A stretch of 39,627 nucleotides of DNA from Helicobacteraceae bacterium (GTDB lineage: Bacteria; Campylobacterota; Campylobacteria; Campylobacterales; Sulfurimonadaceae): assembly GCA_015488775.1 (NCBI GenBank), contig WFNF01000122.1, positions 1-39,627 on the forward strand, in the 5' to 3' direction. Shown piece by piece: positions 2,019-36,024 of this stretch; the first letter of the stretch is position 1; each line of letters begins with the position of its first letter. A program made the translations under genes and the position numbers. The notes below the pieces were generated by a model, which was given only the letters and a program-made list of their open reading frames with translations, was not told the DNA's origin and searched no databases.

Positions 2019-3980
2019 TTACTCTAAAAGCATCTCTTTTATAGCTACTTTTAGGTACTTTACCTGCTCAAAATCTGGGTAGAAAGGTCCTGACATTCTC
2101 TCGCCATATCCTGATGTTGATAGTGTAGAAAGTAATGTTAACTCTCCATCAACATATAAAAAGCTTGGATTTCCACTATCTCCACCTATTGGAGTATGAT
2201 ACATAGATTTGTATCCAGTATAAGATTGTCCATCAAATATAAAAGAATCTTTAGTTTGTCCATTGTATGTGTAGTTATAAAGTGCTTGAATACCTCCAAG
2301 ATATGCTTTTTTCTTCTGATCAGTATAAACATAAGGAGCATCATCTAATTGATTTGAGTATTTATAACCTTTTGTGTCTCTAGCATCAATTATAGAATAA
2401 ACTTTAATTTTATTTGGAACAGGTCTATCGAGTTTTTCTATAGTTGTATCAAAAATTCTATCATCATAATCACTCCCATCACGAATAGTACCTAAAGTTC
2501 TAGTTGCCACAATATATCTTTCAACAAGAGTTCCATCTTTTGCGTAAAATTGTACTTTAGTTCCTACACTTCTTGCAAAGTGTGAAGCTAAAACTATATG
2601 TTGGTTAGTTATGAGTGTTCCTGCTTGTATAGAGTTCCATGCTATACCAGTAAAGTCAAAGTTCCCTGCCCAATTGTCTGGAGTATATGGAGCATCTTTT
2701 GAATATCTAAAGATAGTACTATCTGAAGTTTCAAACTTTTGAGGAAAAGTTTGTTCAAGTTGGTTTACTAAGTACTCTTTTACACTAACACCCTCGTTAC
2801 TAGCTAAAGCGTTTAAATCTATAATATTTATATCTGTTCTATTATCTGCTTCTTCAAAAACATCATTTATGTTTATAGTAACGTCTTGTTTTGCTTTATT
2901 TCCTGCTCTATCTGTAGCAATTGAAGTGATATAGTAAGTGTTTTTTCTCTCATAATCTGGAGGCAATCTAAATGTAACAACACCAGTATTTAAGTCAACA
3001 TTAAAACTATTTGCATCTGTTCCTGCTAAGGTAAAAGTTGGAGTGCTCTCATCATCAGTAGCACTTATAGTCATAACTGAGCGTTGGTTTTCATCTATAT
3101 TTATAGAATCTGATGATGTAATTTTAGGAGGAGTTGTATCGTTTGAGTTTTCATCAATGTCTATTATATTTATCGTTAAATACTCTATATCTGAATTTCC
3201 TGCTGAGTCTGTTGCGTAAGGTCTAAACCCATACTTAGAAATAGTACCAAGAACAGGCTCCTCTTTAAATGTCACCTTCCCACTTACACTATCTACATTA
3301 AAATAGGCTGCACTTTGTCCTAAAGCTATATGGTAAGTTATGCTAGACTGCTCATCAACTGCGCTTAAGGTTATAACATCCAAATCATGCTCATATACGT
3401 TTATGCTTTTTGGTATCTTTAATATAGGCGCAATCGTATCTACAACATTTTCATCAATATCTAAAATTAAAACTTTTAAATCTAAACTAGCTGTGTTGTT
3501 TGACTTATCATTTGCTTTTATCTCAATATTATAAGTATCTTTTGTTTCAAAATCAGGAATACTTTTAAAAGTTAACTTTCCACTTGAGGAGTCCAAATTA
3601 AAACTTTGAGCATCTTTACCAGATAAAGTGTATTTTACTTTAGATACATCATCTTTAGCGACAATTGTAGTTACATTTATCTGATTTTCATTAACACTAA
3701 TTTGGTTTTTAGTACTAAATATAGGTGCTATAGTATCTAAATCTTTTGGAGGTGTAGATGTATTTGTATCTTTATCAATTGGGTCTTTTGGAGGTGTGGA
3801 TGTATTTGTATCTACATCATCAATCTGTTTTTCAGTATCTTTGATATTTGTATCATCAATGCTTTTATCAATTTTAGTATCATTTTTGTCATCGGAACCA
3901 AACGAGATAGTAGTGCTTTCACAAGCATTAAAGCTTACTAAGAGAAATATTGTAAATAAACTCATGTTAAATATTTTCAT
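2019..3980 (-). CDS. Surface lipoprotein: three cadherin-like repeats and trypsin-like protease
   Basis: This 653-aa exported protein has a lipobox ending at C20 (VSFNAC). An Asp/Thr-rich linker follows, with DTNTSTPPKD twice. Three cadherin-like repeats lie at about 88-175, 184-278 and 282-374, each with the pattern APIF..I.ENE...T..A.D, then F.LD..SG.LTF, then Y.I...A.D. These domains normally bind calcium. The C-terminal 250 residues form a chymotrypsin-fold domain with H467 (LASHF), a likely D511 (RIFDTTIEKL) and S602 in GGDSGNP. It is predicted to be lipid-anchored outside the cytoplasm and to act in adhesion or processing of surface proteins; the substrate is unknown. It stands alone, with a weak ribosome binding site. 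Confidence 0.8.
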   Translation of the reverse strand: MKIFNMSLFTIFLLVSFNACESTTISFGSDDKNDTKIDKSIDDTNIKDTEKQIDDVDTNTSTPPKDPIDKDTNTSTPPKDLDTIAPIFSTKNQISVNENQINVTTIVAKDDVSKVKYTLSGKDAQSFNLDSSSGKLTFKSIPDFETKDTYNIEIKANDKSNNTASLDLKVLILDIDENVVDTIAPILKIPKSINVYEHDLDVITLSAVDEQSSITYHIALGQSAAYFNVDSVSGKVTFKEEPVLGTISKYGFRPYATDSAGNSDIEYLTINIIDIDENSNDTTPPKITSSDSINIDENQRSVMTISATDDESTPTFTLAGTDANSFNVDLNTGVVTFRLPPDYERKNTYYITSIATDRAGNKAKQDVTININDVFEEADNRTDINIIDLNALASNEGVSVKEYLVNQLEQTFPQKFETSDSTIFRYSKDAPYTPDNWAGNFDFTGIAWNSIQAGTLITNQHIVLASHFARSVGTKVQFYAKDGTLVERYIVATRTLGTIRDGSDYDDRIFDTTIEKLDRPVPNKIKVYSIIDARDTKGYKYSNQLDDAPYVYTDQKKKAYLGGIQALYNYTYNGQTKDSFIFDGQSYTGYKSMYHTPIGGDSGNPSFLYVDGELTLLSTLSTSGYGERMSGPFYPDFEQVKYLKVAIKEMLLE

Positions 3981-7203: not shown

Positions 7204-9264
7204 TTATTTATCTAGTTCCCAAGCTCCAGCTGTAGTAGATAAACAAAAGTAGATCTCAGTACCTTTATCTAAACCATCACTGTTTAGTTTTATATCTCCA
7301 CCAAGCATTATTGCCATCTTTTTGCTAAGAGAAAGTCCTAACCCTGTTCCTTTGTGCTTTTTCTGCATCACATTTTCTACCTGAGTAAAATCGCCAAATA
7401 GTTTGGTTAAATCTTCCTTTTTTATCCCTATACCTGTGTCTTTTACACTGATACAAACTTGATGATTTTTACTCCACAGTTGGATATTTACTGAACCTTT
7501 TTGTGTAAACTTGATGGCATTTGAGAGGAGATTTGTGACTATTTGCTGGAATATTTTTGGATCTGTTTTATATTTTTGTAAAGTGTATCCATCCATTTTA
7601 AGATGAAATGCTAAGCCTTTATCTTCAGCTAAAGGCTGGAGCATATTATAAGCACTTTGTACTATCTTTTTTAAGTTTACTTCTTCAGAATATATCTCCA
7701 TCTTTCCTGCTTCAATTTTTGCAATATCTAAGATGCCATTAATCATCTCAAGAAGATATTGCGCCGCGCTCTCTATATTTGCAATCATCTCCACTTGGTC
7801 TTCTTTTAACTCTTCATACACAAGTATAAACTGAGTAAATCCTATAATAGCATTGAGAGGTGTACGAAGTTCATGAGACATATTTGATATAAAAGCAGAC
7901 TTTGCCCTTGAGGCTTGCATAGTTTTCTCAACAAGCCTAATTCTTTCTAACTGTAAAATAATCATAGATACGATAGAACGATAAAACTTCTCTTCATTCT
8001 CATCTTGCATTTTATCTGCATCTATTTCGATACCTCCTAGATAGACTTTTTCATCATTTTCAAAGTTATCTACATATAGTGCTATAACATTGTTACTCGT
8101 TTTTTGTGTTTGTATAAAATGTAGTTTTTCGTTACCACTGAGTTTTTGCATCTCTTGGATTGATGTACTTATGCACTCATTCTCATCTTTTGTTTGGATG
8201 ATGGTACTAAAAATCTCCGTTAACTCTATAAATCTTTTAAGACGAAGTTTATTTTCCTGTTCTAAAGACTCAAGAGCTCTATTTGTTGTGTCTAAAAGTT
8301 CATTAAAAGCATAAGAGAGTCTTCCTATCTCATCTTGTGAATCGAGGTTTACCTTTTGTGTATAATCTTTTGTCTGCGTAATTAACTCTGCTGAGGAGGT
8401 TAAATGTAGAAGTGGTTGAACAATTTTGCGACTACTTATTATACCTACAGATACGATTATTATAAGTGCTAGAGGCACGATGTAAAGCATCATATAGAGG
8501 AGGTCATATAAAAAACTAAGGGCTATACTTTTATCTACTGCATAAACAGCATAATATTTATTAAGTTGATTTGGCAACCTTTTATAGGTAAGAAGATGCT
8601 CTGATAAAATAGCACTATATGAGTTTTTATTCTCAGATATAGTGAACTTTTGTCTATCACCGATGTAAATAGTTCCTTTAGCATTGATTATCATGCTATG
8701 GATGCCTTTTCTGTGTATCAAAAAATGGTCAAGATTTTCAAGATTATATTTTAGGACAAGAGAACCTAAAAACTTATTTTTATCAAATGAAGCAAATATA
8801 TTTGAGAAAAGATAAAGATTTTTATCTACTATAAAGTACCTTTTTTTAGTAATTAATTTTGAAAAATAGTGGAACTTTGATTCTATTTTATAGTTTTGTG
8901 ATGAGGCAATCTTTGTACCTGTTGTATCCACAACAAAAAGAGAAACATCCATTCCAATATCTTCTTTTTTTTGCTCTAGCAGTCTTGCTATGCGTTTATC
9001 AATATCTTCAGAGACAATATCATCCATCACATCAAGTTGTGATATAAATTGTAACTCTTTATTTAAAGAAAGAAGATGACTATCAATAGTATATATAATT
9101 TTATCTAAAGTTATCGTCTGCTCTTCGATAATTCTTTGTATTATTTTTGCTTCTCCCCAGTAAAGGATATAGAAATAAAAAAGAGCAAAAGGGAGAAGCC
9201 CAACTACTATAAAAGCTAAAAGAAGTTTGTTATAAAGAGTCTTATTAAAGAAAGATTTAATCAT
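7204..9264 (-). CDS. Membrane sensor histidine kinase with periplasmic sensor and HAMP
   Basis: This is a 686-aa hybrid-less kinase. TM1 is at about 12-34, followed by a periplasmic Cache-like sensor (35-250), TM2 (about 256-278), HAMP (279-332) and a GAF-like linker (340-445). The HisKA domain has the phospho-acceptor H464 in SNMSHELRTP. The ATPase domain shows NLLSNAIKF, DTGIGIKKED and KGTGLGLSL. It is the last gene of the ApbE/DUF3570 cluster, and its GAGGAG ribosome binding site lies inside the 22-codon receiver stub that overlaps its start by 8 nt. Its likely partner is the OmpR-type regulator at 15410-16072. The neighbouring small PstS-like protein may present a ligand to it. The signal sensed is unknown. 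Confidence 0.93.
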   Translation of the reverse strand: MIKSFFNKTLYNKLLLAFIVVGLLPFALFYFYILYWGEAKIIQRIIEEQTITLDKIIYTIDSHLLSLNKELQFISQLDVMDDIVSEDIDKRIARLLEQKKEDIGMDVSLFVVDTTGTKIASSQNYKIESKFHYFSKLITKKRYFIVDKNLYLFSNIFASFDKNKFLGSLVLKYNLENLDHFLIHRKGIHSMIINAKGTIYIGDRQKFTISENKNSYSAILSEHLLTYKRLPNQLNKYYAVYAVDKSIALSFLYDLLYMMLYIVPLALIIIVSVGIISSRKIVQPLLHLTSSAELITQTKDYTQKVNLDSQDEIGRLSYAFNELLDTTNRALESLEQENKLRLKRFIELTEIFSTIIQTKDENECISTSIQEMQKLSGNEKLHFIQTQKTSNNVIALYVDNFENDEKVYLGGIEIDADKMQDENEEKFYRSIVSMIILQLERIRLVEKTMQASRAKSAFISNMSHELRTPLNAIIGFTQFILVYEELKEDQVEMIANIESAAQYLLEMINGILDIAKIEAGKMEIYSEEVNLKKIVQSAYNMLQPLAEDKGLAFHLKMDGYTLQKYKTDPKIFQQIVTNLLSNAIKFTQKGSVNIQLWSKNHQVCISVKDTGIGIKKEDLTKLFGDFTQVENVMQKKHKGTGLGLSLSKKMAIMLGGDIKLNSDGLDKGTEIYFCLSTTAGAWELDK

Positions 9265-9325
9265 TTAATCTCTCCTCAACCGTTCTATTTATTAACTCAT
9301 CATCTACTAGTAGTACCTGTGTCAT
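9257..9325 (-). pseudogene. 22-codon stub of a response-regulator receiver domain
   Basis: ATG at 9325 to TAA at 9257 encodes 22 residues that include TQVLLVDDELINRTVEERL. This is the beta-1 strand and acidic pocket (V-L-L-V-D-D-E) plus helix 1 of a CheY-like receiver; the phospho-acceptor Asp and everything after helix 1 are missing. It overlaps the upstream gene by ATGA and the kinase start by 8 nt, so translation can pass along the three genes. Its codons also carry the kinase's GAGGAG. It is probably the remnant of a receiver gene that once sat between binding protein and kinase, now perhaps kept as a coupling leader. Confidence 0.7.
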
Positions 9326-9732
9326 TTAGATTTCCATTTATAGAGTATTTTTAGCTTATTATTTACTTCATTCGAGGGTATGTAGGCTATTGCACCATCA
9401 ATTTTTTCTACAAATGAGATGCTACTTTGGAAAGATTTCATTGTAAGTGGAGGACGATGCCCTAAGTAATGTTCTTTTGTCCAGAAAGATTTTAAACGAT
9501 TTCGTGACATACCTAAAACTTGCTTCTCAAAAGATTTTCGTATCTTACTTGTAGGAGATAGATTTATGGGAATCAAGAGCTTGTCTTGTGACATTTTTTG
9601 TCTCTTTAAAAATATCATTTTCACCTTTGCCCGACTTAGACTCGTCAGTGTAGAGTTTTTCTGCATAACGACTACAAATTCTTCAGCATGACAGATAAAT
9701 TGTATGAGAAAAATATATAGTAACTTTTTCAT
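9322..9732 (-). CDS. Small PstS-like periplasmic binding protein
   Basis: The 136-aa protein has a signal peptide (MKKLLYIFLIQFICHAEEF) and then VVMQKNSTLTSLSRAKVKMI, followed by a Phe-rich helix, NRLKSFWTKEHYLGHRPP and VEKIDGAIAYIPSNEV. This is the pattern of the truncated phosphate-ABC-transporter-like binding proteins that often accompany a porin and a sensor kinase in Proteobacteria and Campylobacterota. It is about half the length of true PstS and no ABC transporter genes are nearby, so a sensory or chaperoning role is more likely than transport. Its start overlaps the porin stop by 1 nt. Confidence 0.75.
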   Translation of the reverse strand: MKKLLYIFLIQFICHAEEFVVVMQKNSTLTSLSRAKVKMIFLKRQKMSQDKLLIPINLSPTSKIRKSFEKQVLGMSRNRLKSFWTKEHYLGHRPPLTMKSFQSSISFVEKIDGAIAYIPSNEVNNKLKILYKWKSK

Positions 9733-10748
9733 TAAAATAGTGCCGAAATAGAGAGTAAAGTTCTATTTTGAGCATCTTCTTGATGCATCTGATACTCAGC
9801 CTTAAATGCCACAGGGTAAACAGGTCGATAGGTATAACCAAGAACAAGAAAACTATCTTTTTGTGTTTGTTTAAGCTGCTGTGACTCATAAGTTTCAAAA
9901 CGAATAGTAGGTAAATGCTTTGGTGTAATTCTATAGAGACCTTCTATGTATCCAGAATAAGGAACTAAGGAGTGATTTTTGTTAAACTGTGTTCCAAGTT
10001 CACCCATAATTTTATAATTATCTGTGTCATACTTTAGTGAAATCAAACTATAGTAAAAATTTTTATCTACAACAAGAGGATCTCTTGTATGAAAATAACC
10101 ACCGTTATACTTTACACTTAAGTCATTATTTGTATATTCTAAACCTAAAGCATAATGCTTATTAACTTTTAAATTATTATACTCATCATCAAAATCTTTG
10201 TTATTTTGTAAAAGAACATCTACTCTTATCTCATTATCACTATAGCTTGTAAATGACAGATCTAAGCCTGTTGTATATTTTGGATATATCATGGAGCTAA
10301 CTAGAGGGTTTGAACTTGTATCTCGTAATACATTTATTGGAATCATATTCCAGTACCCTATTGGAGAGTTAAATTTACCTGCTCTGAATACAAAATTTTC
10401 ATTATAGTTGTAGTCTAGATAAAGTCTCTCAATGTGAAGTTGTGTATTTTTTTGAGTATTTGTATCACCTTGAGTCCATTGTTTTATATAGAACTCTTTA
10501 AACTCCAACTCTGCCATATAAGAGAACTTATCTGCAGAACCATATACTAAAAAAGCTATCTCATCAGCTCTTAACTGATGAAAGTCAGAATCTTCTACAT
10601 TTGTGTAGTCTGCTGAGAGATAACCACCTATGTAAAGAGGTATATCTCCAACTTGTAAACCCTCTCCTAACACATAATCAGAACTCTGTTCATCCTCTGT
10701 AGCCCATATAGAGCTGAAGAGTAGTATCATAATAAATAAAATTTTCAA
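9732..10748 (-). CDS. Outer-membrane porin-like beta-barrel
   Basis: The 338-aa product has a signal peptide (MKILFIMILLFSSIWA). It is rich in alternating aromatic/polar strands and ends in a terminal phenylalanine (SISALF), the usual outer-membrane assembly signal. GGYLSADYTNVEDSDFHQLR, then AEFL-type strands and FRAGKFNSPIGYWN resemble phosphate/anion-type or short-chain porins of the porin O/P type. It lies between apbE and the small binding protein. A porin plus binding protein plus kinase trio is a recurring arrangement and suggests a ligand-import and sensing unit fused to the redox cluster. The substrate is not predictable. Confidence 0.8.
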   Translation of the reverse strand: MKILFIMILLFSSIWATEDEQSSDYVLGEGLQVGDIPLYIGGYLSADYTNVEDSDFHQLRADEIAFLVYGSADKFSYMAELEFKEFYIKQWTQGDTNTQKNTQLHIERLYLDYNYNENFVFRAGKFNSPIGYWNMIPINVLRDTSSNPLVSSMIYPKYTTGLDLSFTSYSDNEIRVDVLLQNNKDFDDEYNNLKVNKHYALGLEYTNNDLSVKYNGGYFHTRDPLVVDKNFYYSLISLKYDTDNYKIMGELGTQFNKNHSLVPYSGYIEGLYRITPKHLPTIRFETYESQQLKQTQKDSFLVLGYTYRPVYPVAFKAEYQMHQEDAQNRTLLSISALF

Positions 10749-10759
10749 ATTATTCCCTT

Positions 10760-11761
10760 TTACAAAGCATACAACTCTATAGCTTTGATATCTAAACTTT
10801 TAAAATTCTCAAAAAGTAAGTTACCCTCTTCTTCTATGGCAATTATAGCAATATTATATCTTTTAGCTAAAGCTCTTAATTTTTCTTTTGGTGTATTAAA
10901 TGCCATAGTGGCTACTGCATCAAGAAGTGTACCATCTTTACCATCTTTTATAAGAGTGATACTACTGTAGTAGTGGTTTTGCGAAGCCGTTTTTATGTCA
11001 AGAATATGGTGATTCTCTTTAGAGCTAATAAAACGCTCATAGTCACCACTCGTAGAGAAAGTAATAGGAGCTTTTGAAGTTTTTACAACAGCAATATTCT
11101 CATCTGTATATGGACTTTTTATGGCTATATTATAATTTTTTCCAAAGGTACATATCTCACCTCCTGCATTTACCAATGCCTTTTTTGCACCTTTATTTCG
11201 TAAATAGGTGATGAGCTTTTCTGCTATAAAACCTTTGCCTATGCCACCAAAGTCAAGTCGCATACCTTTTCTCTTAAGATATACACTCTCTTTATTTACT
11301 ATGAAATCTTTAAAGTTGACAAGCTCTTTTGCCTTTTGAAGCTCTTTTTTAGTAGGTATTTTTTGTGTACTCTTACCAAAGCAATAGGTAGCTTGAGAAA
11401 GTATTCCGATAGTAGGATCAAAAACACCATCAGAAGCTTTTGCCATCTCAAGTGCTTTTGAAAAGAGTTCTCTCTCATCTTGTGTACATATAACTCCGCT
11501 TATACCTGCATTGATATTAACACGGTTAAGTAGTGAGTCCTCTTTGTACGCTGAAAATTTTGCTTCAAACTCTTTAACCAAATCTAGTGCTTCAAAGAGA
11601 ATCTTTTTTGAGAGATCTGCTTCTAAAATGATCTCTGTACTCATCACTTTTGCACGAAGCCCATTCTCAAAAAAAGCCATCTTAAAAATCAAACTTGTAG
11701 TTGAGAGAGGTAAAGACAGCGCTGATGCTATCAACATCATACCAGCTTTTAATATAGTCAT
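10760..11761 (-). CDS. apbE: ApbE: FAD:protein FMN transferase
   Basis: ApbE uses FAD and Mg2+ to attach FMN covalently to a Thr or Ser of an extracytoplasmic target. The motifs are in order: MSTEI (40-44, usually MGT), DFGGIGKG (170-177), NAGGEI (198-203), STSGDYERF (236-244), HHILD (251-255) and DGTLLDAVATMAF (276-288). The long form overlaps the DUF3570 gene by 80 bp but gives a signal-like start (K5, then MMLIASALSLPLSTTSLIF). An internal ATG at 11680, 1 bp after the DUF3570 stop, would give a protein without export signal. I prefer the long form because ApbE works outside the cytoplasm. Adjacent DUF3570 holds a candidate acceptor motif. Confidence 0.93.
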   Translation of the reverse strand: MTILKAGMMLIASALSLPLSTTSLIFKMAFFENGLRAKVMSTEIILEADLSKKILFEALDLVKEFEAKFSAYKEDSLLNRVNINAGISGVICTQDERELFSKALEMAKASDGVFDPTIGILSQATYCFGKSTQKIPTKKELQKAKELVNFKDFIVNKESVYLKRKGMRLDFGGIGKGFIAEKLITYLRNKGAKKALVNAGGEICTFGKNYNIAIKSPYTDENIAVVKTSKAPITFSTSGDYERFISSKENHHILDIKTASQNHYYSSITLIKDGKDGTLLDAVATMAFNTPKEKLRALAKRYNIAIIAIEEEGNLLFENFKSLDIKAIELYAL

Positions 11762-12797
11762 TTTTTGTAGTTTGGTAGTAGTCTATACTTGCTGTCAATT
11801 TATTTTTTCTCCCAACTTTATATATAAATGGAATCCCTATTGTGAAAGAGTCAAAGGCAGACATTCTATAGTCTGTTGCAAAATAGGCATCATTTGCATT
11901 ATAATTTCCTATCTCTTGTACAAAATTAGACTTCGTTTGTGTATAGTAGCGTAGACGCAATCCAGATGTCAATCTATGTGAGAAGTCGTGTAGTTCTTCT
12001 ATGTTTATCGTATGTGAAGAGATGTCCCAATCATCTTTATAGTACCTATAAGAAACATTCATTGCGTTTGCATCATTAAAAAGATAAACACTTTTAAGTG
12101 AATAAGCTTCTCCAGCTCTTTGATCAGGATAGTTCTCAAACTTTGCTATATCACCTTGTAGTACATAGTGATATGGTGAGGATAAAAAACCTTCACTATA
12201 CATATAGGAAAAAACTCCCTGTATAGAAAAAGTTGGTGTGATAAGTTGGTTGATAGAGAGGTCAAGTTTTCTTTCATTGCGATTATCTTTTGGTAATGCT
12301 CTATCAAATACAGGACTCCACTTATCAAAGGATTGGGAAAAGCCTATCCCTAGTGCTGTGTTTTGCTGATTTAACTGACGAACATAGTTCATAAAAAGTG
12401 ATTTTCCATCATAATCCTTCTCAGTTGAGTAATACCCACCTAATGTCAAAGTATTATCCCCATCATCATAAGTAGCCATAAGCGTTGGAGCATAACGAAC
12501 ATCATCAAAATTATTCTCATTCAAAGATGCACCAGTAACTGCATCAACATGACCACCATTGGCACCATTTTTGATACTTGCTGCTGTAATTCCATCTATA
12601 CGCATTTTAAATCCAAGCATCCATTTATGTGATACTTTTTTAAAGAGCGAAAATGTTGGTGAATATACATTTACATTTGCATTGTCATTATAAGTATTAA
12701 ACCCAAAACTCATACTATCTTTGAGGTTGGAAGCAAAACTATTAATCTCTAGTGTTACTAATGAAATGATAGCGAAAAATAGGTATTTTATCTGCAT
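11682..12797 (-). CDS. DUF3570 outer-membrane protein with ApbE-type acceptor motif
   Basis: The 371-aa protein has a signal peptide (cleavage near FAS, 21-23), many amphipathic strands and a terminal Phe (NYKFDF), so it should be an outer-membrane barrel. The family is recognised from the region DSMSFGFNTYNDNANVNVYS and the constant company of DUF4266. Residues 85-91 read DAVTGAS, which fits D-x-x-[ST]-G-A-[ST], the site ApbE flavinylates in NqrC/RnfG-type proteins; S91 would carry FMN. A weaker second copy, DGITAAS, is at 68-74. It overlaps DUF4266 by 10 bp and apbE by up to 80 bp. Function is unknown; a flavin-bearing outer-membrane protein is my inference. Confidence 0.85.
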   Translation of the reverse strand: MQIKYLFFAIISLVTLEINSFASNLKDSMSFGFNTYNDNANVNVYSPTFSLFKKVSHKWMLGFKMRIDGITAASIKNGANGGHVDAVTGASLNENNFDDVRYAPTLMATYDDGDNTLTLGGYYSTEKDYDGKSLFMNYVRQLNQQNTALGIGFSQSFDKWSPVFDRALPKDNRNERKLDLSINQLITPTFSIQGVFSYMYSEGFLSSPYHYVLQGDIAKFENYPDQRAGEAYSLKSVYLFNDANAMNVSYRYYKDDWDISSHTINIEELHDFSHRLTSGLRLRYYTQTKSNFVQEIGNYNANDAYFATDYRMSAFDSFTIGIPFIYKVGRKNKLTASIDYYQTTKNDYIKSWYDVDSISAVFTSLNYKFDF

Positions 12798-13009
12798 CCA
12801 CAGCCTCCTTGAAAAGAACTTTCACCACCAGCACTTGCTTCACGAATAAGGAAAATATGTCCCTCTTGTTCTGCTCTTTCGCTTATTGGAGAAAGGCTCA
12901 TCTTATCTTGTGCAAAATACTCCTTCTCATAAGGCATCACTCGCACGAGTTTATCTGAACAAGCACTTATAAATAGTGCAAAAAGTAGTAATATGGTTAC
13001 TTTTTTCAT
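12788..13009 (-). CDS. DUF4266 lipoprotein with C-terminal Gly-Gly-Cys-Gly-Cys
   Basis: This 73-aa lipoprotein has its lipobox at FISAC (C17). The middle (VRVMPYEKEYFAQDKMSL) and the end (IREASAGGESSFQGGCGCR) match DUF4266, whose conserved tail is S-R/E-E-x-x-x-G-G then G-G-C-G-C. The two C-terminal cysteines (C70, C72) could bind metal, form a disulfide handled by the thioredoxin encoded just upstream, or carry a modification. It sits between the thioredoxin (2 bp away) and DUF3570 (10 bp overlap). In other bacteria this family is usually found with DUF3570 and ApbE, so it is probably a small accessory of the same envelope complex. Confidence 0.88.
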   Translation of the reverse strand: MKKVTILLLFALFISACSDKLVRVMPYEKEYFAQDKMSLSPISERAEQEGHIFLIREASAGGESSFQGGCGCR

Positions 13010-13011
13010 CT

Positions 13012-13506
13012 CTACTTTCCTAATAATTTTTTGATAGTTTGCTTGAGCTTTGAAATGCCATCAGTATCAAGACTTCCAATATAAACATCAACGATTTTAC
13101 CATTTTGATTTATTAGAAATGAAGAGGGCATACCTGGACACTGATAGGCTTTTGGTAAGCTCTTTTGTGAATCATAAAGAGTTTTCAAACTTCTTTTTGC
13201 ATCCACTTTAGATAGAAAATCTATCCCGTTTTTTGCTTCATTATCTATGTTTGCAAGCACTATTTCAAACTCTGATCTTGAAAACTCACTTTGGAGTTGT
13301 ACAAACAGAGGCATCTCCTCTTGACAACCACTACACCAACTTGCCCACATGTTTAACAAAACAACCTTACCATGAAGGCTTTCACTTTTAAGGCTTTTAT
13401 TTTGTGCATAAATATCTGGTAATTCAAATTTTACTGCATCATCCCCAACTCGTGGTGCTGCAAAAAGTGCAATTGATAGTAAAAATATACTTAGTAATTT
13501 TTTCAT
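13012..13506 (-). CDS. TlpA-like periplasmic thioredoxin
   Basis: The 164-aa protein has a signal peptide (MKKLLSIFLLSIALFAA), then the TlpA/ResA/AhpC-TSA core with VVLLNMWASWCSGCQEEMP. The active cysteines are C58 and C61 (WCSGC). The cis-Pro segment is GMPSSFLINQNGKIV. It should act in the periplasm, reducing or resolving disulfides. The targets in this operon could be the two CxxCH cytochromes immediately upstream, which need reduced cysteines for heme attachment, or the Cys-Gly-Cys tail of DUF4266. The thioredoxin gene is 9 bp from the diheme gene and 2 bp from DUF4266. Confidence 0.9.
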   Translation of the reverse strand: MKKLLSIFLLSIALFAAPRVGDDAVKFELPDIYAQNKSLKSESLHGKVVLLNMWASWCSGCQEEMPLFVQLQSEFSRSEFEIVLANIDNEAKNGIDFLSKVDAKRSLKTLYDSQKSLPKAYQCPGMPSSFLINQNGKIVDVYIGSLDTDGISKLKQTIKKLLGK

Positions 13507-13515
13507 TTTATTTCC

Positions 13516-14097
13516 TTATTTACATTGATTTTGATGTAGTTGAGCATATAAGACAGATGTAAATCCACCTTTTATATGACAAGCATTACATGAAATTCTA
13601 TTAGATCTATTTTGTCTATTGTTTATGTCATAATCATCAGTTGTAAAATTATGAGTAAAATTTGACACGGCAAAAACAGTTCCATTTTTATCTTCTATTT
13701 GTACATGAAATGTCTCAGCACTAAGAGGAAAGTGTGTTCTAGAAAGAATAAATAGATTACCTTTGGCTTTATAACCTTTAGAATTTACATCCTCATAATC
13801 TTTTGAACTATACACAGTGTTAAAATTTGCATCGAGAAACTTAACAACAAGATTCCCTCCACAAACATTATTTAGATCATCTTCATTACTAATATTTGAA
13901 GACTTGTAAAGTGTCCCGCCAACAATAAGATGTTTATTCTCATTAAGATCTACATTGTGACAAGCCAGACAATCTCTTCCTTGAAAGTGCCAACCTTTTA
14001 CGGTCGTTGCTGCACTATTATTACCCTCTTCAGCCTCACAAGCACTCATAAAGATGATAATGAGTATTAAAAAGAGATGCTGTATCGTTTTTTTCAT
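13516..14097 (-). CDS. Diheme c-type cytochrome lipoprotein
   Basis: This is a 193-aa lipoprotein with its lipobox at FMSAC (C20) and two heme-binding CxxCH motifs: CLACH (43-47) and CNACH (170-174). Between them is a beta-rich domain that starts with IVGGTLYKS and contains FLDANFNTVYSSKDYED. The arrangement (heme, G-G-T-L-Y strand, Ig-like domain, heme) is shared with the first part of the next gene upstream (CAQCH then GATIFK), so the two are probably distant paralogues. It is membrane-anchored on the periplasmic or outer face and should pass electrons. It lies 8 bp after the triheme gene and 9 bp before the thioredoxin gene. Confidence 0.82.
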   Translation of the reverse strand: MKKTIQHLFLILIIIFMSACEAEEGNNSAATTVKGWHFQGRDCLACHNVDLNENKHLIVGGTLYKSSNISNEDDLNNVCGGNLVVKFLDANFNTVYSSKDYEDVNSKGYKAKGNLFILSRTHFPLSAETFHVQIEDKNGTVFAVSNFTHNFTTDDYDINNRQNRSNRISCNACHIKGGFTSVLYAQLHQNQCK

Positions 14098-14105
14098 AAT
14101 TTCTC

Positions 14106-14885
14106 CTAATTATTAAGTGCACCAGCACTAATCCAATCTTTTATAGTAGTGTATTGAGTATCGCTTAGCCTCTTTCCACCACCGTGACTCACTTTTGCTG
14201 CACCTTTTTGTATAAGTCTTGAGCTTGATGGTGATGTTGTGCTTACCCGTTGCTTTACTCTCGAATATGTAAAGGTATTGTGGCAATTTGTACACTTATT
14301 TAATATAGGTGAAATATCTCTAGCAAAAGATTTTGCCACTGTTGTAGTCTTAGCCCCAGTTGAAGTTGAAGTTGTAGCTGTTTGAGTTTGAGTTTGAGTT
14401 TGAGTTTGAGTTTGAGTTTTCCCAGCAGTTGTTAATTGTGCTGCAAGAGTATACTTAAATGAGACTATACGACCTGGTGCATTATTTTTACCTGTTGCAG
14501 TATGACATCTATTACAATCAAAACGAGAAGCATCATGTGAATCTGTTACAGATGAATTAATAACAACACCTTGTGGATCGATTACTTGTGCTGTATATTT
14601 TAAAATACCTGAGTTAAATATTGAGTTAGCATTTCCAGAACCACGACCAGTACTGTAATTTATCTGCTCACCACTTTGTGCTAAGACTAAACGAAGTGAG
14701 TAGTTAGTTGCTGCTTGTGAAGTGCTGCTAGGGGCATCTAAGGTTTTAAAAATAGTTGCACCTGATGTAAATGAGTGGCACTGTGCACAGCTCACTCCTT
14801 GGTTATGAGGAGATAAGCTTTCGTCCCCACATCCTGTTAGTAGTAGTGCCATTATAATAACACTGAGTAAGTATAATAATTTCAT
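14106..14885 (-). CDS. Triheme c-type cytochrome lipoprotein with Thr-Gln repeat
   Basis: This 259-aa lipoprotein has its lipobox at LLTGC (C19) and three CxxCH sites: CAQCH (33-37), CNRCH (124-128) and CTNCH (198-202). The first two hemes belong to a domain like that of the diheme neighbour. The third lies in a C-terminal mono-heme domain (ARDISPILNKCTNCHN, ending TIKDWISAGA) of the type found in many c-type lipoproteins. The two are joined by a flexible TQTQTQ linker made by a hexanucleotide repeat. AAGGGAG precedes the ATG. It is the first gene of the compact operon, and two regulatory signals lie directly upstream. Likely role: electron transfer in the envelope. Confidence 0.85.
   Translation of the reverse strand: MKLLYLLSVIIMALLLTGCGDESLSPHNQGVSCAQCHSFTSGATIFKTLDAPSSTSQAATNYSLRLVLAQSGEQINYSTGRGSGNANSIFNSGILKYTAQVIDPQGVVINSSVTDSHDASRFDCNRCHTATGKNNAPGRIVSFKYTLAAQLTTAGKTQTQTQTQTQTQTATTSTSTGAKTTTVAKSFARDISPILNKCTNCHNTFTYSRVKQRVSTTSPSSSRLIQKGAAKVSHGGGKRLSDTQYTTIKDWISAGALNN
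14381..14416. repeat. Hexanucleotide tandem repeat (TTTGAG x6)
   Basis: Six perfect copies of TTTGAG lie inside the triheme cytochrome gene and encode a Thr-Gln linker between its heme domains. Changes in copy number by slippage would alter linker length by two residues per unit without breaking frame. Confidence 0.9.
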
Positions 14886-14892
14886 TCTAGCT

Positions 14893-14925
14893 CCCTTAAA
14901 AGTTTTAATTATCTAATTTTAAGGG
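14893..14925 (-). promoter_or_regulatory. Inverted repeat covering the triheme gene's ribosome binding site
   Basis: On the minus strand CCCTTAAAA and TTTTAAGGG form a perfect 9-bp inverted repeat with a 15-nt spacer. The right arm includes the AAGGGAG ribosome binding site of the gene starting at 14885. If the transcript begins upstream of 14925, the stem would hide that site. If instead transcription starts from the TAGATAAT at 14909-14916, the left arm is not in the RNA and the repeat is more likely a protein-binding site. Confidence 0.4.
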
Positions 14926-14931
14926 AATTTT

Positions 14932-14950
14932 ATGAAGATTAAATGAAGAT
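14932..14950 (-). promoter_or_regulatory. Direct-repeat operator, copy 1 (before triheme gene)
   Basis: ATGAAGATTAAATGAAGAT contains ATGAAGAT twice with an 11-bp period, the spacing typical of OmpR/PhoB-family binding sites. It is identical over 19 bp to 15374-15392. It lies 47 bp upstream of the gene starting at 14885. The response regulator encoded at 15410-16072 is the obvious candidate binder. Confidence 0.6.
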
Positions 14951-14957
14951 GTGATGT

Positions 14958-14973
14958 TTAACCCAAATTATGC
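14958..14973. repeat. Solo 16-bp MITE-terminus sequence
   Basis: TTAACCCAAATTATGC is identical to the terminal repeat of the MITE-like element at 22286-22382. It overlaps the last codon and TAA stop of the gene at 14968-15321. It could be the footprint of an excised or truncated element, or a chance match. Confidence 0.35.
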
Positions 14974-15321
14974 TTTTATGTTTATCCCACTTGTTTGTGT
15001 GTTAAGTGTATTATTTGCATATGCCTTTAATGATGAATTATATATTGATTCAATACTCTTGATCAAAAGAGATTGAAGGTCCTTTGCTTTTGGGCTTGTT
15101 GGAAAAATATTATTTTGCTGTTTATTTAATAACTGACTTAGGGCTTGTGCATTTTGTGCTAAAGTATTTTTGGCACTATCATCGTTATCGTTATCGTTTC
15201 CTTCATTTGCTTCGCTTGTTCCAACTGCTTCTGGAGAAAAACCACTCTGTGCTTGGACAGATGAACTATTTTGCATTTGAGCATAATTTATCTGTGCAAG
15301 GCTACTGTTGTTTACATTCAT
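14968..15321 (-). CDS. Small low-complexity protein, 117 aa, unknown
   Basis: The protein is polar and rich in Asn, Ser, Gln and Ala, with an acidic tract (NEGNDNDNDDS) in the middle and a short helix (AKDLQSLLIKSIESIYN) near the end. There is no signal peptide, membrane segment or cysteine. An AGGAG ribosome binding site lies 7 nt upstream of ATG 15321. It sits between the response regulator and the cytochrome operon, and the direct-repeat operator lies 53 bp upstream of its start. It may be a regulated partner of the system; similar short polar proteins in this phylum have no known function. Its stop codon lies in a sequence identical to a MITE terminus. Confidence 0.6.
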   Translation of the reverse strand: MNVNNSSLAQINYAQMQNSSSVQAQSGFSPEAVGTSEANEGNDNDNDDSAKNTLAQNAQALSQLLNKQQNNIFPTSPKAKDLQSLLIKSIESIYNSSLKAYANNTLNTQTSGINIKA

Positions 15322-15373
15322 AATGTACTCCTATAATAAAATTTATATCTAATTCAAATGATAAAATAGTTTA

Positions 15374-15392
15374 ATGAAGATTAAATGAAGAT
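15374..15392 (-). promoter_or_regulatory. Direct-repeat operator, copy 2 (before 117-aa gene)
   Basis: This 19-bp sequence is identical to 14932-14950: two ATGAAGAT units 11 bp apart. It is 53 bp upstream of the start at 15321 and 18 bp from the end of the response-regulator gene. Matching sequence, orientation and distance at two promoters of one locus argue for a shared activator. Confidence 0.6.
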
Positions 15393-15409
15393 AGAAAGCT
15401 TAAGAAAAG

Positions 15410-16072
15410 TTATTTGTTTATTTTATACCCAACACCACGAACACAGAGGATAAAATCTTTTTGTTTTAGTTTTTTACGAAGGTTTTTTATGTGTACATCT
15501 ACAAGATTACTATGTTTAACACCATAATTATCTTTGTTGATATGCTCACTAAGTTGGTAGCGAGTGAGGACTTGGTTTGAATTTTGCATAAAAAGTTCAA
15601 GTAAATCAAACTCTGCTGTTGTAAGATGTGCGTTTTCACCTGAGACAAAAACCTCACGAAGAGCAGTATCTAGTGTTACATCTCCTATGACTATATTTAT
15701 AGTTTTTTCTGGACTCTCACGGCGTAATAACGCGCGCATACGGGCAAGTAGCTCTACATTTGAATATGGTTTACAAAGATAGTCATCTGCACCACTATCG
15801 AGTACTGCAACTCTATCATTTATCTCTGAATTTGCTGAAAGCATAAGTACAGGTGTTCTTATCTCAATCTCTCGTATCTCTTTGAGAAGTTCAAGGCCAT
15901 CACCATCACCAAGGTTCCAATCAAGTAAAATAAGTCCATAGTTATTTTCATCTATACATTTTTGTGCATTTGTATAGCCAAAAGCAATATCACAGTTATA
16001 TTTTTCACATTCAAGCAATTTAGCTAACTGCCTTGCAACAATTTTATCATCTTCTACTATAAGAATATCCAT
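15410..16072 (-). CDS. OmpR-family response regulator
   Basis: The 220 aa contain a receiver domain (1-118) with acidic pocket E7-D8-D9, phospho-acceptor D51 (LILLDWNL), T/S switch in VLMLSANSE and the Lys in CKPYSNVELLARM. A winged-helix output domain follows (about 125-218) with TTAEFDLLELFM and the recognition helix region HSNLVDVHIKNLRKKL. It is a DNA-binding transcription factor, presumably phosphorylated by the kinase at 7204-9264 at the far end of the cluster. No kinase lies next to it. A TATAAT sits only 6 nt before the ATG with no ribosome binding site, so the mRNA may be leaderless. Confidence 0.95.
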   Translation of the reverse strand: MDILIVEDDKIVARQLAKLLECEKYNCDIAFGYTNAQKCIDENNYGLILLDWNLGDGDGLELLKEIREIEIRTPVLMLSANSEINDRVAVLDSGADDYLCKPYSNVELLARMRALLRRESPEKTINIVIGDVTLDTALREVFVSGENAHLTTAEFDLLELFMQNSNQVLTRYQLSEHINKDNYGVKHSNLVDVHIKNLRKKLKQKDFILCVRGVGYKINK

Positions 16073-16384: not shown

Positions 16385-16870
16385 ATGCAAATTATGATGA
16401 AAAAAGATGATTTTATTGTGTCGAAAACTGACCTAAAAGGTTGCATAACCTATGGTAATGAGATTTTTATAAAGATGTCTGGTTATGTTGAAAAAGAGCT
16501 CTTGGGCTCACCACACAATATACTTAGGCATGCAGATATGCCAGCGGTAGTTTTTAAACTATTATGGAGCAGAGTAAAAGTAAAATCACCCATAAACGCA
16601 TATGTTAAAAATAGATGTAAAAATGGTGACTTTTATTGGGTCTTTGCAAATGTAACACCATCTTGTAATGATAGAGGGGATATAGTTGGATACTACTCTG
16701 TAAGACGTAAGCCAAAAGATAATGCATTAAGCATAATAGAACCTTTATATTCAAAGCTACTTAGTGAAGAGAAACTAAATGGTTTAACTGCTTCAGAGGC
16801 ATTGTTAAAACAAATTTTAGATGAGAAAGGGGTTTCTTATGATGAACTTATCATATCTCTTCAAAAGTAA
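16385..16870 (+). CDS. Aer-like PAS domain protein, first paralogue
   Basis: This 161-aa soluble protein is a single PAS domain of the Aer type plus a C-terminal helix. [20 protein letters not shown], then [20 protein letters not shown] and [20 protein letters not shown] follow the E. coli Aer PAS closely, which binds FAD and senses redox state. Unlike Aer it is not fused to a transducer; the chemoreceptor gene begins inside its last codons (ATG 16839). AAAGG lies 6 nt before the ATG. The C-terminal [14 protein letters not shown] is almost identical in the second paralogue. It probably passes a redox signal to the receptor encoded next to it. Confidence 0.88.
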
Positions 16871-18254
16871 TCAAAATAGGTATTTTTTACTAGTATCATT
16901 AATTATTTTACTTGTTATAGGTTTTAATCTATCTTTTTTATATGGTTTTGGGGCTTTTGTATTGATTTTGATAGGTTTATTTATACCATCAAGTACTAAT
17001 TCACAAGATGATCAAGTATTGTTAAGTATGCAAAAAGTTATAAAAGAGGCTGGGGATGGTCATTTAGAGGGTCGTATTACAAATATACCTGATGAATCTA
17101 TATATTATGACATAGCTTGGGGTTATAACAACTTGGTTGATCAAGTTGAAGCTTTTATGCGTGACACAGTTAGTGCTATTAAACTTGCTGGAGATGGAGA
17201 TGTAAATGGTGTTTTATTTGAAGATGGTTTCAAAGGTAGCTTTAAAGAAGCTATTAAGCCCATTGAGCTGGCTTTAGATGGTATTTTAGCTAGTAAAATT
17301 TTAGAAGTTAAGGGTGCATTAGGAGCAGCTTTTAGTAAAATAGGTGGTGGTTCATCTGGAGGTATTATTCGTATTAGAGATGATATTGAATCTGGTAGTG
17401 AGTTGATGAGCCATATTGCAAAGACCTCTAAAGAAACTGCTTCATCTGCACAAAACAGTTTATCTTCAGTCCAAAGAGTTCAGACAATATTTGATGACTT
17501 AACATCTAGCATTACAAAAAGTATTGATGGAGTTGAAAAATTAAAAATACAATCTGATGAGATATCTTCAATAACTGAACTTATTAAAGATATATCTGAT
17601 CAAACAAATTTACTTGCACTAAATGCTGCAATAGAAGCTGCTCGTGCTGGTGAACATGGAAGAGGGTTTGCGGTAGTTGCAGATGAAGTCCGAAAGTTAG
17701 CTGAGAGAACACAAAAAGCAACTCAAGAGATATCTATAACCATAGCAACATTAAAACAAGAAACAGATGAGATAAATGAAGAATCTATAATTATGTCAGA
17801 GTTAGCAGAAGAATCACATACCCTTATGGATGATTTTTCAAATACCTTACAAACGTTTAGTCAAAATGCGTTAACATCTGAAAATGATGCAAATCAAATA
17901 AATAATGTTTTTTTAATATCAATAATTAAAATTAATCACTCTATATTCAAATCAAAAGCATACTCTGCTTTGATCAATAATAATACTGAGTGTGAACTTG
18001 ATGATATTGATACTTGTACTTTTAGCTCTTGGTACAAGGGAGATGGAAAAGAGCTATTTGGAAATCATACCTCTTACTCATTACTAGCAAAAGAGCATAA
18101 TATAATTCATGAAAATGCACTTCACAATTTTAATTATGTAAAAAATGGAAATGTGTATAATCCAAAAAATTCTCAAGATATTATAGATAACTTTACAAAA
18201 ATGGAGCTAGCAAGTGATAGTTTAAGTAATTTATTAGATAAGATTATTGAGTAA
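16839..18254 (+). CDS. Chemoreceptor with CZB zinc-binding domain, first paralogue
   Basis: The 471-aa methyl-accepting protein has two close N-terminal membrane segments (about 14-50) and hardly any periplasmic part, then a HAMP-like region and the signalling hairpin ([20 protein letters not shown], then [20 protein letters not shown]). The C-terminal CZB domain has the zinc ligands H367, C393, H420 and H424 (NHSIFK, CTFSSWY, EHNIIH). CZB domains sense zinc or hypochlorous acid through the Cys-zinc centre. The start is set at ATG 16839 because AAAGGGG lies 5 nt upstream, inside the PAS gene; the genes overlap by 32 nt. It should couple to CheW/CheA. Confidence 0.92.
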
Positions 18255-26101: not shown

Positions 26102-26186
26102 AATGTGATTTTAACATAATTAGGTTTTAAATATATCGTGCTAAAATATGTGCAAGAAACTTAGTTTTTTATCAAAGGGTATTTTT

Positions 26187-26672
26187 ATGGAAAGAATTTT
26201 AGGAGATAATGACTTTATTATCTCAAAAACAGACAAACAAGGTAGATTAACCTATGTTAATCGTATCTTTATGGATTTAGCAGAGTATGACGAGGAGGAA
26301 CTTCTGGGTAAGCCTCACTCTATCATTAGACATGAAGATATGCCCCGTATAGTTTTTAAACTACTTTGGGAACAGATAGCAGATAAAAAAGAGATTTTTG
26401 CTTATGTTGTAAATAAAACAAAAAATGGAAACTACTACTGGGTTTATGCTAATGTAACAGCTTCTTTAGATAAAAGAGGAAATATATTAGGTTACCACTC
26501 TGTAAGAAGAAAACCTAATCCAAAAGCTTTAGAGATTATAAAACCATTCTACAAATCTATGCTAGATGCCGAAAAATTTGGTGGTATAGAAGCAGGTAAA
26601 AAAGTTTTACTTGATTTATTAAATGAAAAAGGGGTGTCATATGATGAACTTATCATCTCTTTACAAGGATAA
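26187..26672 (+). CDS. Aer-like PAS domain protein, second paralogue
   Basis: The 161-aa PAS protein closely matches the one at 16385. Aer-type motifs are [40 protein letters not shown] and [20 protein letters not shown]. The start at 26187 is supported by AAAGGG 8 nt upstream; a longer frame to 26148 lacks a ribosome binding site and aligns with nothing in the paralogue. FAD-based redox sensing is likely from the Aer resemblance. It overlaps the chemoreceptor gene by 32 nt with the same junction sequence as the first pair. Confidence 0.9.
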
Positions 26673-35374: not shown

Positions 35375-35452
35375 CGGGGTGTAGCTCAGTATGGTTAGAG
35401 TACCTGGTTTGGGCCCAGGGGGCCGAAGGTTCGAGTCCTTTCACCCCGACCA
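35375..35452 (+). tRNA. tRNA-Pro (TGG)
   Basis: Cloverleaf with acceptor CGGGGTG/CACCCCG, anticodon arm CCTGG-TTTGGGC-CCAGG giving anticodon TGG, T-loop TTCGAGT, and encoded CCA. Confidence 0.95.
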
Positions 35453-35497
35453 CTTTTTTTATAAATATACAATTTGTTTTCATAATTTTTTAGCGAT

Positions 35498-35575
35498 GGT
35501 GGGATTAGCTCAGTTGGTTAGAGCACTGGTTTGTGGTGCCGGGGGTCGCGGGTTCGAATCCCGTATCCCACCCCA
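35498..35575 (+). tRNA. tRNA-His (GTG)
   Basis: Acceptor GTGGGAT/ATCCCAC with the extra 5' G at 35498 and discriminator C typical of tRNA-His. The anticodon loop TTGTGGT gives GTG, the T-loop is TTCGAAT, and CCA is encoded. Confidence 0.95.
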
Positions 35576-35609
35576 TTAATTAAAGAACAAAACATAACTT
35601 ATAAAATAT

Positions 35610-35686
35610 GCGTTCGTGGCTCAACTGGATAGAGCATCGGACTTCGGATCCGAGGGTTGTAGGTTCGATTCCTATCGAGCGTACCA
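35610..35686 (+). tRNA. tRNA-Arg (TCG)
   Basis: Acceptor GCGTTCG/CGAGCGT, anticodon arm TCGGA-CTTCGGA-TCCGA giving anticodon TCG, T-loop TTCGATT, encoded CCA. Confidence 0.95.
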
Positions 35687-35709
35687 CTCTTGTGAGATGA
35701 AACATTTAC

Positions 35710-35786
<77 letters not shown>

Positions 35787-35939
35787 TTTATTTGAAAAAA
35801 GTTATATACGCTTTTTATTTTGAGCTTAAGCTTGATACTGTTACGAAGTGTGTGTTTGTTTTTATCAAGTCAAAGTTTAGATAATCGTTTAAACTTAAAT
35901 TAAGAAGAAATTATGTATAATTCCTTCTCTTAATCACAT

Positions 35940-36024
35940 GCGGATGTGGTGAAATTGGTATACACGCCAGACTTAGGATCTGGTGCCGCAAGGCGTGGAG
36001 GTTCAAGTCCTCTCATCCGCACCA
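35940..36024 (+). tRNA. tRNA-Leu (TAG)
   Basis: Class II tRNA with a long variable arm (TGCCGCAAGGCGT), acceptor GCGGATG/CATCCGC, anticodon loop CTTAGGA giving TAG, and encoded CCA. It is set apart from the other four by 153 bp and has its own TATAAT at 35916-35921. The decayed island begins right at its 3' end. Confidence 0.93.

Follow-up and report, generated by a model that had tools for sequence, protein, structure and literature searches.

Gene content of the locus

The window analyzed here is a stretch of 39,627 nucleotides on contig C122 in the 2.7-Mb genome of a Helicobacteraceae bacterium. The system in question is a minus-strand gene run (14885-7204) encoding heme lipoproteins, a thioredoxin, DUF4266 and DUF3570 proteins, the flavin transferase ApbE, a porin, a PstS-like binding protein and a sensor kinase. 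A first-pass annotation of the sequence had described nine intact genes and a receiver stub in tight spacing with a regulator upstream, and this was borne out by the list of open reading frames (ORFs) and by Pfam: the nine intact genes and the receiver remnant are separated by at most 11 bp or overlap. Two points are added to that description, a 117-aa protein gene which had not been mentioned and an ApbE start which probably lies at 11680. The features are as follows.

15410..16072, minus strand: OmpR/PhoB-type response regulator, receiver plus winged helix (Pfam Response_reg 3e-26, Trans_reg_C 4e-22)
15374..15390, minus strand: box 1, CTTCATTTAATCTTCAT, 5' of the 117-aa gene
14968..15321, minus strand: 117-aa protein gene between regulator and operon, no Pfam family
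14932..14948, minus strand: box 2, CTTCATTTAATCTTCAT, 63 bp ahead of the CytA start codon
14106..14885, minus strand: CytA lipoprotein with three CxxCH motifs, intact ORF
13516..14097, minus strand: CytB lipoprotein with two CxxCH motifs, intact ORF
13012..13506, minus strand: TlpA/ResA-like exported thioredoxin (Pfam Redoxin 3.2e-20; ResA model 9.3e-24, below its cut-off)
12788..13009, minus strand: DUF4266 lipoprotein with C-terminal GGCGC (PF14086 8.8e-14)
11682..12797, minus strand: DUF3570 protein, predicted 16-stranded outer-membrane barrel and predicted ApbE substrate (PF12094 2.5e-50)
12576..12596, minus strand: DUF3570 flavin-site motif 1, D68-GITAA-S74, with A replacing G
12525..12545, minus strand: DUF3570 flavin-site motif 2, D85-AVTGA-S91
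10760..11680, minus strand: ApbE flavin transferase, with a longer ORF from 11761 (PF02424 1e-57)
9732..10748, minus strand: cassette porin (sub-threshold Porin_O_P match 0.0028; family profile)
9322..9732, minus strand: one-lobe PstS-like binding protein (own-family profile)
9257..9325, minus strand: receiver remnant of 22 codons, read by eye, intact in relatives
7204..9264, minus strand: sensor histidine kinase with Cache-like periplasmic part, HAMP, HisKA and HATPase (Pfam)

The thioredoxin is of the Redoxin/AhpC-TSA type, and PF13899 was not among its Pfam matches. The GGCGC ending of DUF4266, a C-terminal CxC, was invariant in the five sequences aligned, and CytB carries two further cysteines (C79 and C192) that were invariant in an alignment of 31 sequences. 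A sequence search of the CytB alignment against solved structures found nothing, and its predicted structure was too weak for use (predicted local distance difference test, pLDDT, 68.2). In a phmmer search against the ORFs of the loci studied, the 117-aa protein matched itself alone.

The regulator joins a receiver to a Trans_reg_C domain and has a kinase nearby, the arrangement of an OmpR/PhoB-type two-component system. In the kinase Pfam recognized HisKA (4e-19), HATPase_c (2.4e-25) and HAMP (3.2e-06), with a dCache_1 match (5.5e-08) below the cut-off. The PstS-like protein gave one irrelevant sub-threshold match in Pfam, and a profile of its own family (A8) matched one lobe of PstS chains (best 8.8e-05). 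The receiver remnant starts like the receiver genes of relatives (MTQVLLVDDELINR compared with MTQVLIVDDEVMNR), seven of which have intact receivers of 125-356 aa at this position; in L174 a receiver fused to an HD domain stands where the window has the 22-codon remnant.

Recurrence of the gene set in relatives

DUF3570 was detected in 41 of the 228 family genomes and, in a sample of 298 taken across the phylum, in 6, five of these above the family cut-off. The closest named relatives of the window protein (best identity 86%) are in Sulfurimonas metagenome genomes. Its subfamily was represented by 25 loci (the window, L018, L019, L069 to L088, L090 and L091), all of which carried TlpA and DUF4266, followed by ApbE (24), CytB (23), CytA (17), the porin (17), the regulator (17), the kinase (16), the PstS-like gene (15) and DsbD (8), in a set where four loci are less than 9 kb long and where the regulator and kinase matches may include unrelated ones. 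The co-occurrence predicted in the first-pass annotation is thus found on genome search, and since the architecture recurs in relatives it is not due to chance. The system is genuine and conserved, and its core is known.

The set was also found beyond the phylum, in the Aquificota loci L108, L109 and L113, and Candidatus Manganitrophus (L115) has the core together with CytB, its ApbE being split over two frames. The L019 locus is a syntenic operon with a DsbD gene (586 aa, Pfam DsbD_TM 1.1e-93) between ApbE and the porin and with an intact receiver (125 aa) at the position of the window remnant. DsbD was not among the ORFs of the window operon; the same genome encodes a DsbD-like frame of 605 aa outside the locus. 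That genome also holds a second, smaller CytB-TlpA-DUF4266-DUF3570-ApbE cluster (G000:C20, L017), with no cassette on its 11-kb contig. In the Aquificota loci L108, L109, L111 and L113 a longer receiver protein (453 aa in L108, 440 aa in L109) precedes CytA in place of the OmpR-type regulator, and in L108 and L109 a small CcdA/DsbD-like membrane protein lies ahead of CytB.

Predicted DUF3570 barrel and its flavin sites

An AlphaFold2 model of DUF3570 built with 66 homologues gave a closed antiparallel barrel of 16 strands with a C-terminal aromatic residue, F371 (pLDDT 86.3; predicted template modelling score, pTM, 0.81). A sequence search of the DUF3570 alignment against solved structures found nothing. 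Compared by structure, solved barrels in the PDB resembled the model with Z scores of up to 21.6, among them PgaA, 4y25 (Z 19.3, 252 residues aligned), and OmpG, 2iwv (Z 17.2, 258 residues aligned), and Foldseek also returned matches. Five loops exceed 10 residues (72-97, 161-171, 204-225, 288-314 and 344-358), and all of them were on the same side of the model, the seven turns on the opposite side being of four residues or fewer each. In such solved barrels the N-terminus is periplasmic. The loop between strands 3 and 4 (72-97), in which we place both flavin-site motifs, is predicted to face outward, as are the remaining long loops.

In the alignment of the 66 homologues (A6), D68, A73 and S/T74 of the first motif were present in 66/66 sequences, and D85 (64/66), G89 (61/66), A90 (64/66) and S/T91 (65/66) of the second were nearly as constant. 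Measured against the [S/T]GA[S/T] pattern, the second window motif conforms (TGAS) and the first reads TAAS, the attachment residues being conserved in both. Loss of the first flavin site was considered and dropped, S/T74 being kept throughout the alignment. Meheust et al. (2021, eLife) report that the cognate ApbE flavinylated a Chlorobium DUF3570 homologue in Escherichia coli and that loss of flavinylation required replacement of both motif serines (PMC8238504). Together with the barrel model, this homologue favors the earlier proposal that DUF3570 is a flavinylated outer-membrane protein.

ApbE start and proposed site of flavin loading

ApbE in the window probably starts at 11680 (MAFFENGL) rather than at 11761, and would then have no signal peptide. 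Signal peptides were judged by length and hydropathy, and many Bacteroidota rows in which the motif anchor failed were left out of the comparison of N-termini; the recount covers Campylobacterota and Aquificota loci. Among these, 46 of 53 DUF3570-linked ApbE ORFs start 20 residues or fewer before a conserved M[ST]T, as in MALFEKVLEAKV-MST, which has no hydrophobic stretch. The seven longer ORFs (the window, L069, L071, L073, L080, L089 and L123) share 40-106 bp with the end of DUF3570, and because of this overlap their extra N-terminal residues may be mere open frame. A signal-like start was seen in three ApbEs that are not beside a DUF3570 gene on the same strand, one in the same genome (L021, MRILSFLLIFAIGLYSS) and two second copies (L089 and L130). 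This does not amount to a simple rule, as three ApbEs beside the monoheme protein described below (L181, L206 and L207) also have no signal-like start and certain DUF3570-linked ApbEs outside these phyla (L129, L150, L165 and several Bacteroidota) do have one. Because 46 of 53 ApbEs are too short at the N-terminus to accommodate a signal peptide, the simplest reading suggested for this group is that flavin mononucleotide (FMN) is added in the cytoplasm, ahead of export by Sec; alternatively, ApbE would be exported without a signal peptide.

A separable sensor cassette and probable alternative outputs

The porin, the PstS-like gene and the kinase had been described as parts of one system with the flavin genes and the regulator. 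The distribution of these genes did not agree with this. The cassette porin was found in 119 of the 228 family genomes (profile, 1e-10) and the PstS-like gene in 132 (1e-6), both much commoner than DUF3570. Neighbors were counted within 8 kb of 129 porin places, 50 DUF3570 places (split matches merged by hand) and 60 places of a nonaheme lipoprotein. The porin places were taken from 137 profile rows, the last eight being dropped (three fragments with E values between 3e-25 and 7e-18, and five weaker matches), one of which adjoins DUF3570 in G406. Eighteen porin places had DUF3570 only, 20 the nonaheme gene only, 2 both and 89 neither, and because of these 89 the porin, PstS-like protein, kinase and regulator are regarded as a separable cassette. 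That the porin, the PstS-like protein and the kinase are specific parts of the flavin system was ruled out, as they occur without it at most places. Conversely, the porin was within this distance at 20 of the 50 places of DUF3570 and at 27 of the 60 of the nonaheme gene. By genome, and in tallies that use 113 porin genomes rather than 119, the porin accompanied DUF3570 in 34/41 against 79/187 (Fisher p 1.8e-06) and the nonaheme gene in 43/48 against 70/180 (Fisher p 1.0e-10), both p values being uncorrected for kinship.

The nonaheme lipoprotein carries nine CxxCH motifs and matched the MtrC/MtrF domain II/IV model (2.6e-14), and its family is present in 48 of the 228 genomes (1e-60). A sequence search of its alignment against solved structures found none. 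Examples are L057:2259-4013, L178:5653-7956 and L189:6470-8173, mostly preceded by the same box as the window operon, and the stretch LLAWNDLGMHC was invariant in nine of nine aligned sequences. A third alternative output, a monoheme protein whose C-terminal part is long and whose gene has the box upstream, was seen at L181:4450-5757, L206:2486-3796 and L207:5475-6833, where the same cassette and regulator accompany it along with a small protein and another ApbE. Its L181 copy had no Pfam match at 0.01 and no relevant PDB match; its layout resembles that of Cyc2, a likeness with no database match behind it. In L210, L211 and L193 the cassette adjoins an ABC-type permease, an ATPase and a membrane protein of about 515-525 aa (by eye), with no cytochrome or flavin barrel.

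In a tree of 55 cassette kinases, 30 rows could be labelled by output (21 DUF3570, 9 nonaheme) and required at least four label changes, L019 (DUF3570) grouping with L178 and L190 (nonaheme) at a Shimodaira-Hasegawa-like approximate likelihood ratio test (SH-aLRT) value of 99. This was a quick tree with SH-aLRT values only and several long branches, and two labels are unsafe, L217 (its nonaheme fragment is not adjacent) and L181 (the monoheme gene was not searched for in this set). Because of the L217 label, three changes is, by inspection, the safer figure.

The repeat box

Both boxes at the locus are direct repeats of the form CTTCAT-N5-CTTCAT, with an 11-bp period, which is the usual form of OmpR/PhoB sites. 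A loose form, YTTCAT-N5-YTTCAT, was scanned for in the 250 bp upstream and 45 bp inside mechanically started ORFs of at least 60 aa, in non-redundant loci of our choosing. In the first locus set it stood at -59 to -64 of the CytA start in 13 of 31 ORFs, ahead of all 10 nonaheme ORFs, and ahead of 11 of 61 TlpA ORFs, in loci with no CytA or CytB match ahead of TlpA. It preceded 2 of 33 CytB and 2 of 33 regulator ORFs, and none of the DUF3570 (0/68), ApbE (0/61), DUF4266 (0/39), PstS-like (0/47) or kinase (0/68) ORFs. Twenty further loci were picked partly for boxes or nonaheme genes, so their rates are biased; there the box preceded six of seven nonaheme ORFs with sufficient upstream sequence (of nine in all, two with 70 bp or less being set aside, and the L222 box falling inside the mechanical ORF start) and the monoheme gene in L206 and L207. 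In L208, L209, L217, L219 and L220 it lies directly 5' of the cassette porin, and the sensor genes may regulate themselves.

The window contains three loose matches against 0.13 expected, a number reached in none of 100 shuffles; the third (21983-21967) lies inside a distant gene and has one exact half only. The whole 2.7-Mb genome has 12 loose matches against 6 for the reversed control, and its only exact CTTCAT pairs are the two at the locus. Relatives of the regulator at 67-78% identity are present in many cassette loci, and the exact box was found in 24 of 29 loci where regulator identity was at least 59% and in 11 of 16 where it was 44-59%. Among 150 listed family-wide matches to CTTCATNNNNTCTTCAT, at least 13 lay within 1 kb ahead of a nonaheme gene, at least 10 within 6.5 kb ahead of DUF3570 and at least 8 within 6.5 kb ahead of the cassette porin. 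These were assigned against shortened lists of 46 porin, 37 DUF3570 and 34 nonaheme places, and the window genome (G000) was not among the listed matches. The conserved repeat lends support to the earlier suggestion that the regulator switches the set on. The window regulator would bind the box, and one regulator probably drives alternative redox outputs.

Proposed mechanism and alternatives

We consider it moderately likely that the locus encodes a signal-switched outer-membrane electron-transfer module, and the first-pass proposal of an envelope redox module is supported. Some extracellular condition would be sensed by the Cache-like kinase, probably together with the PstS-like lobe supplied through the porin, and the kinase would phosphorylate the OmpR-type regulator, which would act on CTTCAT-N5-CTTCAT and turn the operon on. 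ApbE would place FMN on one or both serines of the loop between strands 3 and 4 of DUF3570, and the FMN-bearing loop would come to lie outside the outer membrane or tucked into the barrel lumen. DsbD, whose gene is part of the locus in some relatives and lies elsewhere in this genome, would feed the TlpA-like thioredoxin and DUF4266, and these together with the two heme lipoproteins would link periplasmic reducing power to the barrel flavin, from which electrons would pass to, or be received from, an extracellular partner. The gene run, its domains, the conserved motifs and box and the co-occurrence are read from sequence, and the barrel and the side on which its loop lies are predictions; binding of the box by this regulator, flavinylation in this system, the path and direction of the electrons and the substrate are parts of a proposal. 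Because in relatives this cassette adjoins an MtrC-like nonaheme lipoprotein whose gene has the same box, the flavin barrel and the multiheme cytochrome are probably alternative devices for extracellular electron exchange. A more specific version, in which a signal-less ApbE gives the barrel covalent FMN in the cytoplasm and the exported barrel becomes a surface flavin outlet that the sensor cassette can swap with the nonaheme cytochrome, is possible but doubtful.

Several observations weigh against this reading. No periplasmic multiheme partner bridging the outer membrane was found among the operon ORFs, the first flavin motif has A in place of G, and residues 77-94 of the flavin loop were modelled with confidence under 50; because of the latter it is the topology that argues for surface display, and the flavin may sit outside or folded into the lumen. 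At 30 of the 50 DUF3570 places the cassette porin is not found up to 8 kb away, and some of these places may lie at contig ends. Across the 228 genomes DUF3570 and the nonaheme gene are present independently of each other (8 with both, Fisher p 1.0), so that a genome does not just choose between the two, and strict per-genome replacement of cytochrome by flavin was ruled out on this ground. As to the box, it preceded the porin in 1 of 49 cases in the first set and in 5 of 15 in the further loci, so that in some species the regulation seems to extend to the cassette. The nonaheme ORF of L225 has no box. The exact box was present in 2 of 12 loci with regulator identity below 44% and in 11 of 50 with no recognized regulator (13/62 in total), and 119 of the 150 listed CTTCATNNNNTCTTCAT matches, chance matches included, fell to none of the genes considered.

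The same genes could instead form a thiol-flavin relay of the periplasm and outer membrane for the reduction and assimilation of a metal such as ferric iron, DsbD and thioredoxin feeding DUF4266 and the DUF3570 flavin while uptake of an oxyanion or chelate falls to the porin and the PstS-like lobe, with no respiratory export of electrons. The weak likeness of the porin to Porin_O_P and the PstS-like nature of the binding protein would fit such a relay, but neither an iron transporter nor a TonB receptor was found among the operon ORFs and their Pfam matches, and a cassette that also adjoins the nonaheme MtrC-like lipoprotein and the long-C-terminal monoheme cytochrome is a better fit to electron exchange. 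It is chiefly because the cassette alternates with the nonaheme lipoprotein that extracellular exchange is preferred, and we regard the metal relay as unlikely. Flow in the opposite direction is a further alternative, the module oxidizing an extracellular donor (a reduced metal, a sulfur compound, a mineral or a cathode) and passing electrons inward to the cytochromes. The relatives in Sulfurimonas, Aquificota and Candidatus Manganitrophus belong to groups of chemolithotrophs, and one alternative output is the monoheme protein of Cyc2-like layout, which had no Pfam or relevant PDB match; both speak for inward flow, but DsbD/TlpA chemistry normally sends reducing power outward, and we judge inward flow to be decidedly unlikely.

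It is improbable that two unrelated units, an operon of flavin and heme genes and a self-standing sensory unit of porin, PstS-like protein and kinase, have come together by accident with no functional link. The 89 of 129 porin places that have neither redox output, and the loci where the box stands ahead of the porin instead of a redox gene, speak for such a junction. Against it, the adjacency recurs in same-strand and divergent layouts, in two DUF3570 subfamilies and in Aquificota, and in the first set the box precedes the leading redox gene but hardly ever the porin and never the PstS-like gene or the kinase.

A 2024 study reports that a complete porin-cytochrome set was not found in its Sulfurimonas genome and supposes an undetected porin (PMC11748539). 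The electron-transfer module described here is a candidate for extracellular electron transfer in Sulfurimonas, and by naming candidate genes together with a regulator and a box in the DNA it makes the porin-cytochrome question testable. If outputs are exchangeable under one sensor, electron outlets could be searched for by box and cassette and not by CxxCH counts. If the more specific version is true, a cytoplasm-loaded surface flavin barrel would give Sulfurimonas and Aquificota a so far unrecognized route of extracellular electron transfer.

Other features of the window

Three further features were noted, by eye except for the tRNA genes. Positions 16385-18254 and 26148-28074 hold similar, apparently paralogous pairs of a PAS-like gene and a methyl-accepting chemotaxis protein-like gene. 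At 2019-3980 a 653-aa lipoprotein-like protein has cadherin-like repeats and a GDSGNP stretch like that of trypsin-type proteases. Five tRNA genes are clustered at 35375-36021, followed by an integrase-like ORF at 36727-37362.

Relation to known systems

The core families and the general idea of flavin/cytochrome exchange are not new, since both are published in PMC8238504. That paper counts ApbE/DUF3570/thioredoxin/DUF4266 clusters with DsbD (227 that have DUF3570) and without it (316), and discusses flavin and cytochrome as interchangeable in respiratory systems. A word search of its main text gave no occurrence of barrel, porin or Sulfurimonas (supplements not covered). DUF3570 did not occur in the main text of the mSystems 2024 paper, and neither DUF3570 nor barrel occurred in a 2025 ApbE review. 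No paper placing DUF3570 in a barrel was found in the literature searched (supplements not covered), nor was regulation by the box or alternation with the nonaheme cytochrome. The first-pass statement that no characterized system has the complete set therefore holds for the cassette and heme lipoprotein additions but not for the ApbE/DUF3570/thioredoxin/DUF4266 core. What appears to be new, as read from sequence and model, is the separable sensor cassette, the repeat box, the barrel model with its flavin loop and the mostly signal-less ApbEs.

Compared with the DUF3570 systems of the 2021 eLife paper (PMC8238504), the window has the same four core families in one cluster with ApbE adjoining DUF3570, the same C-terminal CxC of DUF4266 and, in some relatives of the locus, DsbD. 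DUF3570 is the flavinylation substrate in the published system and is predicted to be so here. The window differs in its two heme lipoproteins, its porin/PstS-like/kinase cassette, its regulator with a conserved box and the Redoxin/AhpC-TSA type of its thioredoxin, and DsbD is not in the window operon, while only part of the published clusters have it.

Set beside LuxPQ type sensors, the cassette likewise has the gene of a small exported binding protein beside that of a periplasmic-sensing kinase; here, however, the binding protein corresponds to one PstS lobe and an outer-membrane porin gene usually adjoins. With MtrCAB conduits the system shares the proposed role in electron exchange at the outer membrane, and the nonaheme (C9) alternative matches the MtrC/MtrF model. 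Where MtrCAB has a periplasmic multiheme cytochrome in a large barrel, the operon has no MtrA-like or MtrB-like protein, only lipoproteins with three and two CxxCH motifs and a predicted barrel of 16 strands. DUF3570 itself has no CxxCH, and the cofactor of the barrel would be a flavin.

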